Assembly (NCBI GenBank): GCA_040757085.1
Contig: JBFLXJ010000011.1
Coordinates: forward strand, 1 to 36,085
Reading direction: 5' to 3'
DNA: 36,085 nucleotides
Origin: Bacillota bacterium
GTDB lineage: Bacteria; Bacillota; Sulfobacillia; JACIYH01
Position 1 is the stretch's first letter. The number at the start of each line of letters is the position of its first letter. Position numbers and translations under genes: made by a program. Shown here one piece after another: positions 14,721 through 25,469 of this stretch. The notes below the pieces were generated by a model. It made no database searches. It was given only the letters and a program-made list of their open reading frames with translations, and was not told the origin of the DNA.

Positions 14721-14743
14721 AAGCCACAGGAGGTGATGGCAGG

Positions 14744-15424
14744 ATGCGGCTCATTTCCGAGAGGGACGCGGCAACGCTCCGCAGGCGCTTTGCGGAGTTA
14801 ACAGGACCCGTTAAGCTGGTGATGGTCACCCAGTCGGAATCGGGTCTGACGGTGCCCGGCCATGAATGCGCCTACTGCCGGGAGACCCGCATGCTGGTCG
14901 AGGACCTGGGTGAGGTGTCCGACGGGCGGATCGGAGTCGAGGTATATGACTTCCTGCTGGACAAGGACCAGGCCGCCCGGTATGGGATCGAGAGGATTCC
15001 GGCGGTAGCCGTGGTGGGGGACCGGGACTACGGCATCCGGTATTACGGCATCCCGGCCGGGTATGAGTTCGCATCCCTGGTAGAGGACATCCTCGACGTG
15101 TCGGCACAAAGGAGCGGCCTGCGCCCGGAGACGGCGGCGGCCCTGAAAGGATTGCCCAGCGACGTACACATCCAGGTCTTCGTGACCCCCACCTGACCAT
15201 ATTGCCCGCGTGCGGCCAGGTTGGCCCACAAAATGGCAATGGAAAGCGACAGGGTGCGGGCAGACGTGGTGGAGGTGTCAGAATTCCCTCACCTGGCCCA
15301 GCGGTACCATGTGTTCGGGGTGCCCAAGGTGGTGATCAACGAGCGGGTTCAGTTCGAGGGAGCCGTACCGGAAAAGATGTTCCTCAGTTACGTGTTGCAG
15401 GCTGCAGGCGTGGAGGAATCGTGA
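14744..15424 (+). CDS. selenocysteine-containing protein disulfide oxidoreductase (two-domain glutaredoxin-like), UGA read as Sec151
   Basis: Two thioredoxin-fold halves are encoded in one frame of 226 residues interrupted only by a TGA at 15194-15196. The first half carries CAYC (Cys42, Cys45). The second would carry U-P-Y-C: the codons around the TGA read Thr-Pro-Thr-[TGA]-Pro-Tyr-Cys-Pro, and relatives have Cys at the TGA position (CPYC, the catalytic site of PDO-type oxidoreductases). The frame and homology continue perfectly after it ('ARLAHKMA', 'YHVFGVPKVVINE', cis-Pro included) to a TGA ending at 15424. A stem-loop starts directly after the UGA. This is a thiol/selenol-disulfide oxidoreductase, likely cytoplasmic. 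The ATG 14744 start follows AGGAGGTG. Conventional gene finders would call a truncated 150-residue protein and a separate 67-residue one. Confidence 0.88.
15194..15242 (+). promoter_or_regulatory. UGA selenocysteine codon with downstream bacterial SECIS-like hairpin
   Basis: Immediately after the UGA (15194-15196, followed by C) the sequence folds as nested stems. ATTGCC (15201-15206) pairs with GGCAAT (15235-15240); GTG (15210-15212) with CAC (15227-15229); and GGCCA (15214-15218) with TGGCC (15222-15226), with a single bulged C at 15213. The apical loop is GGT (15219-15221). A G-rich small apical loop about 22 nt after the UGA fits the known geometry of bacterial SECIS elements that bind SelB. 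CC/GG at 15197-15198 and 15241-15242 could extend the base. Confidence 0.8.
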
Positions 15425-15550
15425 GCCGTAGATAGGCCATGCCGGGAATTCTCCGGCCTGTGGGCCGGGCGCACTGAGGTGGTGCAGGAACTGCGATCTG
15501 AGGTGCCGTCCTGCCGTGCGCAACCCCGCCCCGGTGCATACTAGGGCGGG

Positions 15551-16729
15551 GTGATCTTCTTGGCAAAACCCAGAGTCACGGTGGTGGGCGGTGGGCTGGG
15601 CGGAGTTCCCGTGGCCAACGGGCTGGCGCGGCGGGGCACCTGCCAGGTTACCCTGATAGACCTGCTCGGGCAACACGTGTACCAGCCCGGGTTCCTGTAC
15701 GTCCCCTTTGGTCGGGTGAAGCCGGGTAGCCTGGTGCGCGACCTGCGGGCTGTGCTCCATCCCGGCGTGCAGCTCGTGGTGGGAGAAGCCAAGGCGGTGG
15801 ATCCCGAGGGGCGGGTCGTTCACCTGGCCGATGGCCGGATGGTATCTTCGGACTGGTTGGTGCTGGCGCCCGGGGCCGAGTACGGGCCAGCCGTCGTGCC
15901 CGGCTATCAGGGGAACATCCACCATTTCTACTCACTGGAAGCGGCCCTGGACCTCATGGGCGAACTGCACCGCTTCCGGGGCGGTGACCTGGTGATGGGG
16001 ATCACCACGCTCCCCTACAAGTGCCCGCCTGCTCCCCTGGAGTTCGCCCTCCTGGCGGACGACTTTCTGCGGCGGCGGGGGTTGCAGGGCCGCTATCACG
16101 TCAGGTTTCTCACTCCGTTGACGCAGCTTTTCGGCATGAAGTCCCTGTGCGAGGCATACCAGCCCCTCTTCGCCCGTCGGGGTGTCGAGGTGGTAACCAG
16201 GTTCACGGTGGGGGAGATCGACCCCGGGCGGCGCAGGGTGCTCTCCCAGGAAGGGGATGAAGTCCCGTATGACCTGGCGATCCTGGTTCCTCCCCACCGG
16301 GGCACGAAGATGGTACGCCGCTCGGGACTGGGGGACCGCCACGGGTGGATACCCACCGAGCGAGACACCCTGCGGGTGGTGGGGCACGAGCACCTCTACG
16401 CCCTGGGCGATGCTGCCGACCTGCCCGTCTCCAAGCACGGGGCAGGTACTCACATGCAGGCGGAGGTGGTGGTGCGTAACGTGGCGGCCGAGATGGAGGG
16501 GCGCGAGCCCGCCTACCAATACACCGGACGGGTGTTTTGTATCAGTGACACCGGCCAGGGGAAGGCTAGCCTGGTATCTTACAGTTATGACCGTCCCCCT
16601 GCACCTCCCACGCCGCTGCCCATGTTTCACTGGGCCAAGCTGGCCACCGGTGCCCTGTACTGGAGGCTGGTGCCCCGGGGATTGCTGCCGCTGCACGGAT
16701 TTCGTCGCCGCCAGCGGGGCGCCTCCTGA
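15551..16729 (+). CDS. sulfide:quinone oxidoreductase-like FAD flavoprotein, copy 1
   Basis: Type II NADH dehydrogenase/SQR fold: FAD-binding 'VTVVGGGLGGVPVANGLARRG' at the N-terminus, a second nucleotide-binding region, and the FAD-contacting 'LYALGDAADLPVSK' near residue 290. Two cysteines sit where SQRs keep redox cysteines: Cys158 in 'PYKCPPAPLE' and Cys330 in 'GRVFCISDTG'; both are shared with copy 2. The third SQR cysteine is not evident. The C-terminal 'HWAKLATGALYWRLVPRGLLPLHGF' is amphipathic and suits membrane attachment. The enzyme likely oxidises sulfide or a persulfide with transfer of electrons to quinone or another acceptor. The start is GTG 15551 after AGGGCGG, 126 bp after the selenoprotein. 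Confidence 0.82.
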   Translation: MIFLAKPRVTVVGGGLGGVPVANGLARRGTCQVTLIDLLGQHVYQPGFLYVPFGRVKPGSLVRDLRAVLHPGVQLVVGEAKAVDPEGRVVHLADGRMVSSDWLVLAPGAEYGPAVVPGYQGNIHHFYSLEAALDLMGELHRFRGGDLVMGITTLPYKCPPAPLEFALLADDFLRRRGLQGRYHVRFLTPLTQLFGMKSLCEAYQPLFARRGVEVVTRFTVGEIDPGRRRVLSQEGDEVPYDLAILVPPHRGTKMVRRSGLGDRHGWIPTERDTLRVVGHEHLYALGDAADLPVSKHGAGTHMQAEVVVRNVAAEMEGREPAYQYTGRVFCISDTGQGKASLVSYSYDRPPAPPTPLPMFHWAKLATGALYWRLVPRGLLPLHGFRRRQRGAS

Positions 16730-16815: not shown

Positions 16816-16823
16816 TTGCGCAA
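16816..16823. promoter_or_regulatory. TTGCGCAA dyad, candidate ArsR operator
   Basis: A perfect 8-bp palindrome lies about 12 bp downstream of the predicted transcription start of the operon that ends with an arsR gene. A position over the early transcribed region suits repression by an ArsR dimer; the assignment is inference. Confidence 0.3.
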
Positions 16824-16851
16824 GTCACCAACTAAGCAGGGGGGAGGAACT

Positions 16852-17271
16852 GTGGCGGAGGACCGGTTTTCCATGGTGGTGTTTTCGGGAACGGTGGATA
16901 AGCTCTACCCGGTGGCCATCGTGGCCTCGGGAGCGGTGGCCATGGGCATGGAGGTGGACGTCTTCGTCACTTTCTGGGGCCTGCAGGCCTTCCGCAAGGG
17001 GAACCCCGCCCAACTGGCGCGGGTGAGCAAGGACTTTGAGGACCAGGCGGGGGTTATGATGCAGATTATGCAGGAGAAGAAGGTGCCCTCCTGGTACGAC
17101 ACGCTGCGTCGGGCGAAGGAGCTGGGAAACGTGCGGGTACACGCCTGCGCCATGACAATGGACCTGTTTGGCCTTACCAAGGACGACCTGGACCCCATCG
17201 TGGACGACGTGGTGGGCGTAGGGGAATTCGTGGACCGGGCCAGGGAAGGCAAGGTCACTCTTTTTATCTAG
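16852..17271 (+). CDS. DsrE2-like sulfur-carrier/transferase protein
   Basis: 139 residues of the DsrE/DsrF-like superfamily. '[37 protein letters not shown]' is the typical first half, and Cys99 in '[15 protein letters not shown]' is the conserved persulfide-carrying cysteine of DsrE2 proteins. The C-terminus '[22 protein letters not shown]' is family-like. DsrE2 is usually found with TusA and rhodanese or SQR genes and passes sulfane sulfur between them. The GTG 16852 start is behind GGGGGGAGGAA; the upstream in-frame GTG/TTG codons overlap the promoter. TusA follows after 17 bp. Confidence 0.88.
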
Positions 17272-17288: not shown

Positions 17289-17534
17289 ATGAGCGATCAC
17301 ACGGTCAGGGCGGACCGGGTCATCGATGCGCGCGGTGCTTATTGCCCCGGCCCCCTGATGGAACTGATCAGGGCGGTCCGCGAAGCCAGCGTAGGAGATG
17401 TGCTGGAGGTGCTCTCCTCCGATACGGGCTCCAAGCGCGACATCCCGGCCTGGGCGCAGAAGGCCGGGCACGAAGTCGTGGGAGTGTTCCCCGAGCAAGG
17501 ATACGATCGCATAGTGGTGCGCAAGGCCAGATAG
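17289..17534 (+). CDS. tusA: TusA-family sulfur carrier
   Basis: 81 residues with the hallmark 'CPGPLMEL' (CPxP motif, Cys19) at the start of the first helix, followed by '[30 protein letters not shown]', the classic TusA body. The cysteine carries sulfur as a persulfide. In this setting it would accept sulfur from DsrE2 or the SQR-like enzymes rather than serve tRNA thiolation, though the latter cannot be excluded. ATG start with a GCGAGGATG spacer region. Confidence 0.92.
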
Positions 17535-17613: not shown

Positions 17614-18825
17614 TTGCAGAGCACGGATCGCGTGGTCGTTGTGGGTGGGGGCACCGGGGGAACTCTGGTAGCGAACCTGCTGGCCCGGCAGGGAGCCAGA
17701 GTTACCCTGATCGACGCCACTGGCTGGCACGCCTATCAGCCCTCATACCTGTATTTGCCCTTCTTGGACAGGGTGCCGCGCAGCAACGGACCTCTTTTCA
17801 GCCGCCCGTTGCGCCACCTGCTGGACGGGCGTGTAGAAGTGGTTGTGGGGCAGGTGAGCGGTGTCGACCACCGCGCCGGCCGGGTGCTGGTAGAGAAGGG
17901 GGCCAGCGTGCCGTACGATTGGCTGGTCCTGGCTACCGGGACTACGTACTATCCCGATGAGATCCCCGGTTACCGGCATGCCGCCCATCACTTCTACTCG
18001 GCGGACGCTGCCCTGCTCCTGCGCGAGGCCCTGGCTTCTTTCCGGGGCGGTGATGTGGTGGTGGGCGTCACCACCGTCCCCTACAAGTGCCCGCCCGCAC
18101 CGCTGGAGTTTACCCTCCTGCTGGAAGCCTACCTCCGCCGCCGGGGGATCAGGGAAAAGACCCGTATCCGATTCCTGAGCCCCCTCCAGCGCGCGTTCGC
18201 CATCGAGCCGGTATCGGAGATGGTTACGCCGATCATGGAGAAGCGGGGTATCCAGATCGACACCTTCTTCAATACCGAAAGTGTTGACCCCGAGGCCAGG
18301 GTGGTGCGGTCCCTCGAGGGTGACGAGATCCCCTACGACCTGCTGGTCCTGATTCCGCCCCACGGGGGAGTGCGCGCGGTGCGCGACTCCGGGCTGGGCG
18401 ATCGGAGCGGCTGGATACCCACGGACCGTCATCTCATGAAAGTGCTGGGTCACGAGCGGATGTACGCTCTGGGGGACGCTACCGACCTGCCCGTATCCAA
18501 GAGCGGCGTGGCCGCCCACTTCCAGGCAGAGGCCGTGGCGGGTAACATCCTGGACGAGATGGCCGGGCGTGCTTGCTCTCATGCCTACACGGGGCGGGTG
18601 CTTTGTTTCGCCGAGACGGGCCTGGGGCGGGCCACCATCATATCGTTCGACTACCAGCACCCACCGCGTCCTCCCCTACCCCATCCCGTACTCCACTGGG
18701 CCAAACTCGCCTTCAATGTGCTATACTGGTACACGGTACCTCAGGGCCGCGTGCCCCTGCGGGGCGTGGTCCGACTGGGGGCGAGGACGCGCTCGGTGGA
18801 GGAGGAAGCGCATATTGGCGACTGA
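17614..18825 (+). CDS. sulfide:quinone oxidoreductase-like FAD flavoprotein, copy 2
   Basis: 403 residues, clearly paralogous along the whole length to the 15551 gene. Shared blocks include 'VVGGGTGGTLVANLLARQGA', 'TVPYKCPPAPLEF' (Cys159), 'GDEIPYDLLVLIPPHGG', 'GLGDRSGWIPTDRH', 'MYALGDATDLPVSKSG' and 'GRVLCFAETG' (Cys331). FAD-binding motifs and both conserved cysteines are intact. The C-terminal 'HWAKLAFNVLYWYTVPQG' again looks membrane-associating. The differences in the middle ('SEMVTPIMEKRGIQIDTFF') suggest separate substrates or acceptors. The TTG 17614 start follows a GGGGGGAAGAGAG segment. The end overlaps arsR by 11 bp. Confidence 0.82.
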   Translation: MQSTDRVVVVGGGTGGTLVANLLARQGARVTLIDATGWHAYQPSYLYLPFLDRVPRSNGPLFSRPLRHLLDGRVEVVVGQVSGVDHRAGRVLVEKGASVPYDWLVLATGTTYYPDEIPGYRHAAHHFYSADAALLLREALASFRGGDVVVGVTTVPYKCPPAPLEFTLLLEAYLRRRGIREKTRIRFLSPLQRAFAIEPVSEMVTPIMEKRGIQIDTFFNTESVDPEARVVRSLEGDEIPYDLLVLIPPHGGVRAVRDSGLGDRSGWIPTDRHLMKVLGHERMYALGDATDLPVSKSGVAAHFQAEAVAGNILDEMAGRACSHAYTGRVLCFAETGLGRATIISFDYQHPPRPPLPHPVLHWAKLAFNVLYWYTVPQGRVPLRGVVRLGARTRSVEEEAHIGD

Positions 18826-19144
18826 CGACCGTCTCTTTGAGTTGCAGAGCCAGATCTGCCGCACCCTGGCCCATCCCAAGCGGCTGCAGATCATCGAATT
18901 GCTAAAGACCGGTGAGAAGACCGTTTCCGACCTGGCGGAGGCCCTGGGCACCCAGATCCCCAATGTATCTCAGCACCTGCAGATGCTCCGACAGACGAGG
19001 CTGGTGGTGGCCCGCCGGGAGGGAGCCAACGTGTACTACTCACTCTCCAATCCCAAGATCGTGCTGGCCTGCAACACGCTGCGCGAGGTGCTGGCCGAAC
19101 AACTGGAGATCGACCGGGCTGCTGCCGCGCTGGGTGGCCGGTGA
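18815..19144 (+). CDS. ArsR/SmtB-family regulator
   Basis: 109 residues with a winged helix: 'RTLAHPKRLQIIELLKTGEKTVSDLAEALGTQIPNVSQHLQMLRQTRLV' followed by the beta wing 'VVARREGANVYYSLSN'. Two cysteines, Cys15 in the first helix and Cys86 in the last ('VLACNTLRE'), lack a typical metal-binding ELCVCDL motif. A two-Cys layout and a place at the end of a sulfur operon make a persulfide or redox sensor plausible, but this is inference. The start TTG 18815 lies behind GGAGGAGGAAG and overlaps the SQR stop. It probably autoregulates the operon from the dyad at 16816. Confidence 0.88.
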   Translation: MATDDRLFELQSQICRTLAHPKRLQIIELLKTGEKTVSDLAEALGTQIPNVSQHLQMLRQTRLVVARREGANVYYSLSNPKIVLACNTLREVLAEQLEIDRAAAALGGR

Positions 19145-20975: not shown

Positions 20976-21008
20976 GCGGCCCGGGTGCGAGTCCGGGGGG
21001 GTGATGCG

Positions 21009-22091
21009 ATGGCGAGCCTGGTTCTTGATCGCGATGTTGCAGAGGCTGCCATCCTGGGGGGTGCGGTGCTGGGTGGAGGTGGGGGCGGCTCGATGGCCGA
21101 AGGCCGCCGCCTGGCGCTCCTGGCGGTGGAGATGGGCGAGCCCGAGTTGGTGGATATCGACGAGCTGCCACCGGACGCCGTTCTGGTGACGGCGTCGGCG
21201 GTGGGGGCGCCCGCCGCCCGAACGGCCCGGGCCTTACCCGTGCATTACGTCAAAGCGGTGGAACTGTTGGGCAGGAGCACCCGCATCGACGGCCTCATCA
21301 CGAACGAGTGCGGGGGTCTGGCCACGGTGAACGGCTGGCTGCAGGCGGCGGTCTTGGGTATTCCGGTGGTGGATGCCCCCTGCAACGGACGCGCTCACCC
21401 CACCGGGGTAATGGGTTCCATGGGATTGCACCGGTTGCCCGGGTACGTTTCCCGTCAGGCGGCGGTGGGGGGCGACCCGCGTGCGGGGACTTACGTGGAA
21501 TTACTGGTACAGGGAAACCTGGAGCCGGCTGCCGCCCTGGTGCGGCAGGCTTCCGTTCAGGCCGGAGGCATGGTGGCGGTGGCGCGCAACCCCATCAGCG
21601 CAGCTTACGCCCGGGAGCACGCGGCGGTGGGCGCCGTACGGCAGGCCGTCTCGGTCGGGCGGGCAATGCTCAGCCGGCAGGGTAGGGGCGCCATGGCCAT
21701 GGTGGAGGCTGCCTGCGAGGTTCTGGGGGGCGAGGTGCTGGCCAGGGCTCGGGTCGTGGACGTCCGGCTGGAGACCACGGGCGGCTTTGACGTGGGGAGC
21801 GTGGTATTGCGACCGGTGGCGGGTTCGCCGCTTGAGCTCTATTTTTGGAACGAGTACGCCGTGTGCGAGCGGGACGGGCAGAGACTGGCCACTTTTCCCG
21901 ATCTGCTGGCCACTTTAGACCTGGATTCCGGATTGCCGTTGGCGACGGCTGAGATTGCCGTCGGGAAAGAGGTTGCTCTGGTATGGGTACCGCGTCAGCG
22001 CCTGATCCTGGGGGCCGGTATGCGCGATCCTGAACTGATGGTTCCCCTGGAAGCGGCAATCGGTAGGGAGATTGTGAAATACGTGTTCTGA
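21009..22091 (+). CDS. DUF917 family protein
   Basis: 360 residues, the usual length for DUF917. Characteristic blocks: 'AILGGAVLGGGGGGSMAEGRRLAL', 'PVHYVKAVELL', 'TNECGGLATVNGWLQAAVLGIPVVDAPCNGRAHPTGVMGSMG', and a C-terminal beta-rich 'YFWNEYAVCERDGQRLATFPDLLATLD'. DUF917 proteins are found with hydantoinase/oxoprolinase-type genes and are thought to take part in ring-opening or amide metabolism; the reaction is not established. The ATG 21009 start is preceded by GGGGGGTGA; earlier in-frame GTG codons lack spacing. First large gene of the cargo operon. Confidence 0.85.
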   Translation: MASLVLDRDVAEAAILGGAVLGGGGGGSMAEGRRLALLAVEMGEPELVDIDELPPDAVLVTASAVGAPAARTARALPVHYVKAVELLGRSTRIDGLITNECGGLATVNGWLQAAVLGIPVVDAPCNGRAHPTGVMGSMGLHRLPGYVSRQAAVGGDPRAGTYVELLVQGNLEPAAALVRQASVQAGGMVAVARNPISAAYAREHAAVGAVRQAVSVGRAMLSRQGRGAMAMVEAACEVLGGEVLARARVVDVRLETTGGFDVGSVVLRPVAGSPLELYFWNEYAVCERDGQRLATFPDLLATLDLDSGLPLATAEIAVGKEVALVWVPRQRLILGAGMRDPELMVPLEAAIGREIVKYVF

Positions 22092-22106
22092 GCCCGGGAG
22101 GTGAGG

Positions 22107-23054
22107 GTGTTGGCATGGCGTCACGTGATGGACGCGTTTGAGTTGCTTGACAGTGCGTATGTGGACGGTGCCCGGGTGGCGGAGTTCCTCCGTGCCCATG
22201 GGGTGGACGACGTGACCGTAACGCCCATCCAGGGTGACAAGGGCCGCACGGACTTCGTCAAGGCCGTCATCCCGGGTGCCCGGGGCAGGTTCGCGGGGGG
22301 TGATGCTCCCACCCTGGGCATCATTGGCCGGCTGGGAGGGCTGGGGGCCCGTCCGGAGCGCATAGGATTCGTGTCGGACGGGGACGGTGCCCTGGCGGCC
22401 ATCTCCTGTGCACTGAAGCTGGGCGCGATGCGATGCAACGGAGATGTGTTGCCCGGGGACGTAATCGTGGCTACCCACATCTGCCCCCATGCGCCGACAG
22501 AGCCGCATGAGCCCGTGCCCTTCATGGGCTCCCCGGTGGACATGGCGGTCATGAACCGCTACGAAGTCGATCCCGCCATGGATGCCATCCTCTCGGTCGA
22601 CACCACCAAGGGCAACCGCATTATAAACGTGCGTGGGTTTGCAATTTCTCCCACCGTCAAGGAGGGGTACATCCTCCGGGTGAGCGAGGATCTGCTGGAT
22701 ATCATGCAGATCGTCACGGGGCGGATGCCCGCCGTGTTGGCAATCACGACCCAGGATATCACCCCGTACGGCAACGGGGTATTCCACATGAACAGCATCA
22801 TGCAGCCCGCCACCGCCACCACTGCGCCGGTCGTGGGCGTAGCCATTACCACCGAGGTGCCCGTGCCGGGCTGTGCCACCGGGGCCAGCCACCTGCAGGA
22901 CGTTGAGAGCGCGGTGAGATTCTGCCTCGAAGTGGCCAAGGCCTTCGGAGCGGGGAAGTGCCGATTTCACGATGAGCACGAGTTCCGCCGCCTGGTGGAA
23001 CTGTACGGCACCATGTCTCACCTTCAGACCCCGGGGAGGGTGGGCGCATCCTGA
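22107..23054 (+). CDS. DUF1177 family protein
   Basis: 315 residues. Recognisable DUF1177 features are 'ELLDSAYVDGARVAEFL', 'TVTPIQGDKGRTDFVK', 'GIIGRLGGLGARPERIGFVSDGDGALAA', 'GDVIVATHICPHAPTEPHEPVPFMGSPVD', and 'STTKGN'-like 'SVDTTKGNRI'. The clustered His residues and Asp suggest a metal-dependent or zinc-peptidase-like fold, which is inference. DUF1177 genes commonly sit with DUF917 and AroM-like genes, as here. The start could be GTG 22107 or TTG 22110 behind GGGAGG. It ends 23 bp before the AroM-like gene. Confidence 0.82.
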   Translation: MLAWRHVMDAFELLDSAYVDGARVAEFLRAHGVDDVTVTPIQGDKGRTDFVKAVIPGARGRFAGGDAPTLGIIGRLGGLGARPERIGFVSDGDGALAAISCALKLGAMRCNGDVLPGDVIVATHICPHAPTEPHEPVPFMGSPVDMAVMNRYEVDPAMDAILSVDTTKGNRIINVRGFAISPTVKEGYILRVSEDLLDIMQIVTGRMPAVLAITTQDITPYGNGVFHMNSIMQPATATTAPVVGVAITTEVPVPGCATGASHLQDVESAVRFCLEVAKAFGAGKCRFHDEHEFRRLVELYGTMSHLQTPGRVGAS

Positions 23055-23077
23055 GTGGAGAAGCGGGGGAAGCGGCA

Positions 23078-23743
23078 GTGAAGGTAGGGGCGATCACCAT
23101 CGGTCAATCTCCGCGCGCGGATGTCTTGCCCGAGATGATGCCCATTATCGGGGCCGGGGTCGAGGTCATCGAGGCCGGGGCGCTGGACGGTCTCGGCGGG
23201 GATGAAATCGCGGGTATGTCGCCCCGTCCCGGCGAGTACGTCCTGGTGACGAAATTGCGGGATGGCAGTTCGGTGCAGGTGGCCAGGGAGCGCATCGTCG
23301 CCCGCATGCAAGAACAGATCACCCGGGTCGTGGAGCGGGGGGCCGAGGTGGTGGCCATCCTTTGTACGGGGGAATTCCCCGAGTTGACCTGCCCTCGCCT
23401 GCTGGTCGAGCCCCAACTCGTGCTGCATCATTTCGTGGCAGCACTGGCCAGAGGTCGAAGGCTGGGGGTAGTGGTCCCGGCTCAAGAACAGGTGGAACAG
23501 GCCAGAGTGCGATGGGAAGGAGTTGGGGCTCAACTCCAGGTGGAGCCGGCGTCGCCCTACGGGGAAGTGACCGAGCTGAGGCGCGCGTCGGAAGTGCTGG
23601 GCGACTGGGGTGCCGAGCTGGTGGTGCTGGACTGCATAGGTTTCACCATGGCGATGAAAAGAGAGGTGCACGCCGTCCTGGGGGTCCCCGTAATACTGCC
23701 GCGCACAGTGCTGGCCCGCACGCTGGCCGAACTCGTGTCCTGA
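23078..23743 (+). CDS. AroM-like protein
   Basis: 221 residues with the AroM signature 'KVGAITIGQSPRADVLPEMMPII' at the N-terminus, 'GALDGLGGDEIAGMSPRPGEYVLVTKLRDG', 'AILCTGEFPEL' and 'VVLDCIGFTMAMKREV'. The fold resembles the aspartate/glutamate racemase superfamily. 'LCTGEF' and 'LDCIGF' place a Cys in each half, as the two catalytic cysteines of racemases. A racemase-like role in D-amino acid metabolism would fit DUF1445 and PxpA downstream; this is inference. GTG 23078 follows GGGGGAAG. Confidence 0.85.
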   Translation: MKVGAITIGQSPRADVLPEMMPIIGAGVEVIEAGALDGLGGDEIAGMSPRPGEYVLVTKLRDGSSVQVARERIVARMQEQITRVVERGAEVVAILCTGEFPELTCPRLLVEPQLVLHHFVAALARGRRLGVVVPAQEQVEQARVRWEGVGAQLQVEPASPYGEVTELRRASEVLGDWGAELVVLDCIGFTMAMKREVHAVLGVPVILPRTVLARTLAELVS

Positions 23744-23769
23744 CGGCGGCATGGGGTCCTCCTGGCGCC

Positions 23770-23793
23770 GGGCCGGGCAGGTTTTCCCGGCCC
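23770..23793. other. hairpin within the cargo operon
   Basis: GGGCCGGG (23770-23777) pairs with CCCGGCCC (23786-23793) around loop CAGGTTTT in the 146-bp gap between the AroM-like and DUF1445 genes. No T-run follows. The rest of the gap has no ORF of note. Confidence 0.4.
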
Positions 23794-23889
23794 ATGCGGT
23801 GAAACATCAGGTGTGGACGGGATAGGCCGCCTGTAGCCGCAATGACCGTCTACCAGGGCAGCGACCGAATACCGGAACAGTGACCGATT

Positions 23890-24687
23890 ATGGCGTTCGC
23901 TGAATTTTCTGGGGCTACTCCGCGGCAGGTCCGGCAGTGGATCCGCGAGGGGCGGTGGACGGGACCCACCGCCGGGCTGGCTCACGGCTATGCGCAGGCC
24001 AACCTGGTGATCTTGCCGCGGGAGATCGCTTACGACTTCCTGGTTTTTGCCCACAGGAATCCCAAACCGTGCCCGCTCCTCGATATCACCGACCCGGGCT
24101 CCCCGGAACCCGTCCGGGCTGCGCCCGGGGCCGACCTGCGCACCGACCTTCCCCGCTATCGGCTTTTCAGGGACGGGGAGCTGGTCGAGGAAGTAACCGA
24201 TGTCACTTCCGTGTGGCGGGGCGATCTGGTGGGCTTCCTCCTGGGCTGCAGTTTCAGCTTCGAATGGGCTCTGCTGCGGGCGGGTGTTCCCGTGCGTCAC
24301 CTGGAGCAGGGATGCAACGTGCCCATGTACGTTACGAATATCCCGTGCCGCTCCGCTGGCGTGTTTTCGGGACCCATGGTGGTGAGCATGCGACCCATCC
24401 CTGGCGGCCTGGTGGGGCGGGCCGTGCAGGTTACCGCCCGCTACCCGCGTGCCCACGGGACGCCCGTGCATGTGGGTGATCCTGCCGCAATAGGCATCAG
24501 GGATCTGGACCGCCCGGATTTCGGTGACCCCGTTACGGTAAGGCCCGGTGAGGTGCCTGTGTTCTGGGCATGCGGGGTGACGCCTCAGGTGGCCCTCATG
24601 CGGGCGCGGCTGCCGCTGGCCATAACTCATGCTCCGGGACACATGTTTATCACCGACATCCCGGACGAGGAACTGGAGACGCTGTGA
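23890..24687 (+). CDS. DUF1445 (putative hydro-lyase, D-glutamate cyclase-like)
   Basis: 265 residues, full length for this family. Motifs: 'TAGLAHGYAQANLVILP', 'FLVFAHRNPKPCPLLD', 'DLVGFLLGCSFSFEWALLRAGVP', 'NVPMYVTNIPC', 'VVSMRPIP', 'FWACGVTPQVALMRARLP', 'ITHAPGHMFITD'. The related domain in mammalian DGLUCY converts D-glutamate to 5-oxo-D-proline, and in Bacillus the family member YcsI sits beside YcsF/PxpA. Here too the next gene is pxpA, so a role in making or clearing 5-oxoproline is likely. The ATG start is weakly preceded by a ribosome site. The stop overlaps a possible GTG start of pxpA. Confidence 0.87.
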   Translation: MAFAEFSGATPRQVRQWIREGRWTGPTAGLAHGYAQANLVILPREIAYDFLVFAHRNPKPCPLLDITDPGSPEPVRAAPGADLRTDLPRYRLFRDGELVEEVTDVTSVWRGDLVGFLLGCSFSFEWALLRAGVPVRHLEQGCNVPMYVTNIPCRSAGVFSGPMVVSMRPIPGGLVGRAVQVTARYPRAHGTPVHVGDPAAIGIRDLDRPDFGDPVTVRPGEVPVFWACGVTPQVALMRARLPLAITHAPGHMFITDIPDEELETL

Positions 24688-24707
24688 CGACGGCGGGGGG
24701 ATCAACA

Positions 24708-25469
24708 TTGTTGAAAGTGGACCTGAACGCGGACGTGGGGGAGAGTTTCGGGTCCTACCGGCTGGGTGAAGACGAAGAGGTCATAAAGCACGTAACCTCC
24801 GTTAACATAGCGTGCGGGATGCACGCTGGTGACCCCCTGGTCATGCGTCGCACCGTGTCCCTGGCTAAGGAAGCGGGGGCGGCGGTGGGCGCCCACCCGG
24901 GATATCCGGACCTGCAGGGGTTCGGACGGAGGTACCTGGCTCTCACCCCCGAGGAAGTGGAGGCCTTTGCCATCTATCAGGTAGGTGCCCTGTGGGCGTT
25001 CTGTCGCTCCGCGGGGGTACCGCTCCGTCACGTGAAGGCACATGGGGTACTGTATAACGTGGCCGCCCGGGATGGGGCCATAGCGGATGCCATTGCCCGG
25101 GCCGTGGCTCAGGTTGACTCGGGCCTGGTGCTCGTAGGCCTGGCGGGCTCGGAGTTGTTGAGGGCCGGGGAACGGCTGGGGTTGCGGGTCGCTGGCGAGG
25201 CCTTCGCCGACCGCGGGTATAACCCCGACGGCACCCTGGTCCCGCGGGGTTGCCCGGGGGCCATAATCCACGATCCGGAAGCGGTGGCCGAGCGCGTGCT
25301 CCGGATGGTCAGGGAGGGGCGTGTTGCCGCCAGCGACGGGTCGGATATCGAGGTGAGGCCAGACACTGTCTGCTTCCACGGAGATACGCCCGGCGCGGCC
25401 AGGCTCGTGCGGTACGTGCGAGAGTACCTGGAGCGGGCCGGGGTTTGCGTGGTGCCCATGAGTGACTAG
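24708..25469 (+). CDS. pxpA: LamB/YcsF family, 5-oxoprolinase subunit A
   Basis: 253 residues. Conserved acidic and His motifs of PxpA: 'DLNADVGESFGSY', 'NIACGMHAGDPLVM', 'GAHPGYPDLQGFGRR', 'RHVKAHGVLYN', 'EAFADRGYNPDGTLVPR', and 'CFHGDTPGAA'. With PxpB and PxpC, PxpA hydrolyses 5-oxoproline to glutamate using ATP. The partner subunits are not in this window, so they must be elsewhere or the protein works alone. TTG 24708 behind GGGGGG is chosen; a GTG at 24684, overlapping the DUF1445 stop, is an alternative that adds eight residues. Confidence 0.9.
   Translation: MLKVDLNADVGESFGSYRLGEDEEVIKHVTSVNIACGMHAGDPLVMRRTVSLAKEAGAAVGAHPGYPDLQGFGRRYLALTPEEVEAFAIYQVGALWAFCRSAGVPLRHVKAHGVLYNVAARDGAIADAIARAVAQVDSGLVLVGLAGSELLRAGERLGLRVAGEAFADRGYNPDGTLVPRGCPGAIIHDPEAVAERVLRMVREGRVAASDGSDIEVRPDTVCFHGDTPGAARLVRYVREYLERAGVCVVPMSD

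Follow-up and report, generated by a model that had tools for sequence, protein, structure and literature searches.

A two-domain protein disulfide oxidoreductase with a predicted selenocysteine in its C-terminal active site, encoded beside a sulfide cluster in a Sulfobacillia bacterium

Introduction

The presence of selenocysteine (Sec) in the protein disulfide oxidoreductase (PDO) family TIGR02187 has been catalogued since 2006, and the family bears the NCBIfam name PDO_seleno_TRX. Its Sec-containing members were reported from Carboxydothermus and Symbiobacterium under the description 'Homolog of AhpF, amino-terminal domain' (PMC1794560), and TIGR02187 is listed with a UxxC motif in reviews of 2022 and 2026 (PMC9312934, PMC13188914). 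The activity of a PDO has been described in Sulfolobus, in which NADPH and thioredoxin reductase feed the enzyme, which in turn recycles peroxiredoxins, and in which thiol-transferase activity resides in the C-terminal site (PMC7465337).

The gene described here adds a member to this family. It lies in a stretch of 36,085 nt (contig JBFLXJ010000011.1 of assembly GCA_040757085.1, Bacillota; Sulfobacillia), which is termed the window. We regard it as almost certain that its product is a two-domain PDO of the bacterial kind, with Sec replacing the catalytic, solvent-exposed Cys of the C-terminal CPYC motif.

The gene and its product

The gene, its ribosome binding site and its two active sites are located as follows, the active sites being assigned from translation and alignment:

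14728..14736, + strand: Shine-Dalgarno sequence AGGAGGTGA, strong, 5' of the seleno-PDO ATG
14744..15424, + strand: seleno-PDO gene, coding for 226 aa in two thioredoxin-fold domains when the internal TGA is translated as Sec
14867..14878, + strand: N-terminal active site C42-A-Y-C45
15194..15205, + strand: C-terminal active site U151-P-Y-C154, with the TGA at 15194-15196

The frame is open save for the single internal TGA and the terminal TGA at 15422-15424, which agrees with the initial annotation, where the codon was described as the only TGA interrupting the frame. The internal TGA corresponds to residue 151 in the context TPT-U-PYCP, and the first base 3' of it is C, as had also been noted there. 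A TGA followed by C is a weak termination context.

With the Sec residue entered as Cys in protein-level programs, the product matched the NCBIfam model TIGR02187.2 (PDO_seleno_TRX) with 269 bits against a cut-off of 185, over positions 2-209 of 209, and all 25 of the aligned relatives matched TIGR02187 as well. The PDO of P. furiosus (1a8l) was matched along the whole length of the protein (E 4e-53), and the AlphaFold model, for which the 25 aligned relatives served as input, had a mean pLDDT of 93 and a TM of 0.89 to 1a8l. Two thioredoxin folds with a CxxC-type site in each (C42AYC45 and U151PYC154) were thus recognized, and the family match, the 1a8l match and the structure model bear out the earlier description as a two-domain PDO. 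A search of plasmids for this PDO returned distant matches only, mostly AhpF-like.

The TGA codon among relatives and within the genus

PDO homologues were searched for in 201 related genomes and found in 92 of them, with at least one TGA form in 77 of the 201 (hand count from the table). In the 170 loci that were fetched and in which the codon position was located, the C-terminal site opened with TGA in 93 and with a Cys codon in 77, and with nothing else in any locus. All 93 TGA-bearing relatives carry the TGA at exactly the same codon as the window gene, and only one further internal TGA, near a C-terminal end, was found in the matched parts of these 93 loci. The TGA forms come from Bacillota-type relatives, Chloroflexota, Acidobacteriota, Actinomycetota, Zixibacteria and ANGP1. 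When the TGA was read as U and the protein was aligned with PDO homologues, the check that had been proposed for this locus, residue 151 fell on an invariant Cys, the conserved first Cys of CPYC. The N-terminal CxxC is lost in some members of the family (four loci; ADYS, LEYG, SPGV) in which the C-terminal U/CPxC is kept.

Three species of the genus, whose PDO proteins are 90-92% identical, can be compared directly. The window species (G000) and a second one (G002) have TGA at the site, and the third (G001) has TGC; G001 also possesses selA and selB. Downstream of the TGA, 33 silent substitutions and one replacement separate G000 from G002, so translation runs on past the codon, in line with the claim that the frame continues there. 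The nine hairpin codons from C154 to H162 are identical in all three species, and no other stretch of the gene is unchanged over so many codons; by shuffling, such a run has a p of about 0.001 at that place and about 0.04 anywhere in the gene. The intact hairpin in the TGC form of G001 is probably a relic SECIS, left after Sec had recently given way to Cys, unless the TGC stems from an assembly error confined to that codon. With TGC in the congener, Sec cannot be called indispensable to the genus.

On a wider scale, a quick tree of 124 proteins, built with the site itself left out and yielding counts of changes and not their directions, requires at least 16 Sec/Cys changes, 6 of which are forced by well-supported branches, which makes the PDO family a good system for the study of Sec gain and loss.

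The hairpin behind the TGA

A hairpin behind the UGA had been claimed in the initial annotation, and it was confirmed at the following place:

15210..15229, + strand: predicted bacterial SECIS hairpin within the coding region, GUG/CAC lower stem and GGCCA/UGGCC upper stem

The core of this structure, GGCCA-GGU-UGGCC, occupies 15214-15226, and its GGU loop (15219-15221) starts 22 nt after the UGA. Taken on its own, the folding energy of the window hairpin is not significant (z from -1.3 to +0.2, according to the stretch chosen), and randomisation of synonymous codons gave a marginal p of about 0.07. Its significance rests on the pattern in the family and on the absence of change in the nine codons across the three species.

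The family pattern was drawn from 162 distinct sequences behind the site, 87 of TGA forms and 75 of Cys forms. A stem of at least 5 bp is possible in 87/87 TGA forms vs. 49/75 Cys forms (65%), and such a stem with a G among its first two loop bases in 91% vs. 20%. When synonymous codons were randomised with the protein kept, the energy z averaged -1.06 in TGA forms and 0.00 in Cys forms. Full pairing of the common Bacillota stem (+15..+20/+26..+31) occurs in 60 of the 87 TGA forms and is absent from all 75 Cys forms. At the window locus the hairpin lies immediately behind the UGA and has a small apical loop with G, and in the family the hairpin is linked to the TGA forms.

The common Bacillota position was tried for the window locus and does not fit, the window stem lying about 5 nt more distant from the codon. 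This second arrangement (+21..+25/+29..+33) occurs in 12 TGA forms, with G-C as the outer pair in 7 and A-U in 5; the stem is also possible in seven Cys forms and is hence less specific than the common one. When the letters of the 3' stem were shuffled over all TGA forms, pairing was 0.849 vs. 0.827, a small excess that is explained by most sequences sharing one stem, so that covariation over the whole set is given no weight here. A scan of the whole window with Rfam gave no family above threshold.

The Sec machinery

The genes for Sec synthesis and insertion were sought by family search in the window genome (2.67 Mb, 98% complete). It contains selA (559 bits), selB (above cut-off), tRNA-Sec (75.7 bits) with the anticodon TCA (UCA), and selD (above cut-off), the last with an in-frame TGA in the N-terminal GUAAK motif, so that SelD is itself a second selenoprotein of this genome. 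The absence of selABCD, named in the initial annotation as the finding that would speak against Sec, is therefore not what was observed.

Among the genomes with a TGA form, selA scored above cut-off in 72 of 77 and selB was found in 4 of the other 5 (hand count); the sole TGA-form genome in which neither was detected is 63% complete. Among the genomes with TGA-free (Cys) forms only, selA and selB are both missing in 6 of 14 (hand count, one homologue-bearing genome having escaped classification in this tally).

The neighbouring sulfide cluster and the proposed role of the seleno-PDO

Downstream of the PDO, and on the same strand, five genes follow in an order that the three species of the genus share:

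15551..16729, + strand: SQR1, flavoprotein resembling type III sulfide:quinone reductase, Cys form without in-frame TGA
16816..17271, + strand: DsrE2-like sulfur carrier
17289..17534, + strand: TusA-like sulfur carrier, named by its motif
17614..18825, + strand: SQR2, second type III SQR-like flavoprotein
18815..19144, + strand: ArsR/SmtB-family regulator, start probably about 18815

The start of the regulator is placed there because the ArsR-family match sets in at around residue 92 in the ORF that opens at 18569. The two SQRs were considered as possible selenoproteins and rejected: against the best NCBIfam model, NF049943 (SQR_III selenoprotein subtype), they score 313 and 332 bits, below 525, and neither 15551-16729 nor 17614-18825 contains an internal TGA. 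Further downstream, 20985-25469 encodes a thiohydantoin-desulfurase-like protein (below cut-off), a DUF1177 protein and two further ORFs, and has the look of a degradation cluster.

The PDO and SQR1 are separated by a gap of 126 nt that is strongly structured (z -2.7). A GC-rich inverted repeat, CCCCGCCC-CGGTGCATACTA-GGGCGGGG, lies at 15524-15551, directly 5' of the SQR1 start. The repeat occurs once in each of the three species and is conserved, unlike the remainder of the gap; its 3' arm extends into an SD-like GGGGTGAT, so that it may serve as a hairpin for translational control or as an operator. The statement that the PDO stands directly before a sulfide operon can thus be kept as regards adjacency, co-transcription being uncertain across a gap with a conserved hairpin.

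How would the seleno-PDO work? We infer actual Sec insertion at residue 151 from what was computed on family, fold, the place of the TGA, machinery, the hairpin with its coupling to TGA, and purifying selection behind the codon. In the mechanism that we propose, SelB with Sec-tRNA(UCA) would decode the UGA owing to the SECIS hairpin some 13-33 nt behind it; thioredoxin reductase would pass electrons from NADPH to the seleno-PDO; and the U151/C154 pair, with C42/C45 as its partner or relay, would reduce protein disulfides, peroxiredoxins or persulfides. Most likely, then, the seleno-PDO is a dithiol/selenol reductase fed by thioredoxin reductase. This reading is the best supported because of the PDO pathway of Sulfolobus and because Sec takes the nucleophilic position of the very C-terminal site to which activity was assigned there, a place at which a selenol would count most. 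Thioredoxin reductase is the probable electron donor, an assignment drawn from relatives, as the thioredoxin reductase gene of the window genome is on another contig than the PDO; thioredoxin-reductase genes were found near the PDO at 14 of the 112 loci with flanks.

A narrower version of this explanation, in which Sec is not disputed, would have the seleno-PDO act mainly in sulfane-sulfur metabolism, by freeing sulfide from SQR-made persulfides carried by DsrE2 and TusA. It is possible, if doubtful. The conserved order of SQR1-DsrE2-TusA-SQR2-ArsR behind the PDO speaks for it, as does the knowledge that thioredoxin-type reductases can be depersulfidases (PMC11763069). Against it, no SQR1, DsrE2 or TusA homologue was found near the PDO outside this genus among the 112 loci, whose flanks often span only 1.5-4 kb, so that a more distant cluster would escape. 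The usual redox neighbours are instead pyridine-nucleotide-disulfide oxidoreductases (7), thioredoxins (5), OsmC (5) and AhpC/redoxins (4), the top redox families in a Pfam tally of 63 same-strand neighbours, and the 126-nt gap with its inverted repeat leaves the link to SQR1 uncertain as well. Of the initially suggested selenol oxidoreductase for persulfide or disulfide chemistry, the identity as a Sec-PDO stands and the persulfide part is doubtful, the cluster lying beside the PDO only in this genus among the loci compared, where it weakly favours persulfide as the substrate. It is rather unlikely that the PDO of this genus is a dedicated selenol depersulfidase of the SQR-DsrE2-TusA module which in one species, still endowed with selA and selB, has just passed from Sec to Cys and kept an unchanged relic SECIS; were this true, the genus would present a natural experiment on the worth of Sec.

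Other readings of the TGA

Two further explanations bear on the codon itself, and both are very improbable. That the TGA is a genuine stop, in a pseudogene, a truncated protein of 150 aa or a sequencing error, agrees with its meaning in table 11 and with the TGC of the congener, but it is opposed by the 33:1 ratio of silent to replacement changes behind the codon, by the same-codon TGA common to independent genomes, by the complete Sec machinery and by the family-wide coupling of the hairpin to TGA. That a near-cognate or suppressor tRNA inserts a residue other than Sec at the TGA, Trp or Cys, could draw on the weak termination context given by the following C, but a tRNA-Sec with anticodon UCA is present together with SelA, SelB and SelD, relatives have Cys, the usual counterpart of Sec, at the codon, and a SECIS-like hairpin accompanies the TGA forms.

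Implications

Gene calling with TGA as a stop would cut the seleno-PDO to 150 aa, and its C-terminal active site would be lost; the same error would hit many genomes of Bacillota, Chloroflexota, Acidobacteriota, Actinomycetota and Zixibacteria. The genus itself offers a clean Sec/Sec/Cys set at one site for measuring the contribution of selenium to a PDO.

Comparison with known systems

The closest described proteins are the Sec-containing TIGR02187 members labelled 'Homolog of AhpF N-terminal domain / Grx-like domain protein', such as those of Carboxydothermus hydrogenoformans (ABB15282.1) and Symbiobacterium thermophilum, with which the window PDO, compared by family and description, shares the family and the UxxC redox site. 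It differs from most Bacillota members of TIGR02187 in that the apical loop of its hairpin is shifted away from the UGA by about 5 nt, and it comes from a different organism. The archaeal and Aquifex PDOs (PfPDO 1a8l, 1j08, 2ayt/2ywm, 2hls) likewise have two thioredoxin folds and two CxxC-type sites, and PfPDO is 43% identical to the window PDO (TM 0.89); however, the C-terminal site begins with Cys in PfPDO and in the corresponding protein of P. horikoshii, and with Sec in the window PDO. The N-terminal domain of AhpF shows the same tandem fold (TM 0.77-0.82) and takes its electrons from a thioredoxin-reductase-like domain, a role to which that of the window PDO is likened, although AhpF is fused to its reductase and its identity with the window PDO is about 20-24%. 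In Sec thioredoxins and glutaredoxins, too, a thioredoxin fold carries UxxC at its nucleophilic position (PMC13188914), but, unlike the window PDO, they are small proteins of other families.
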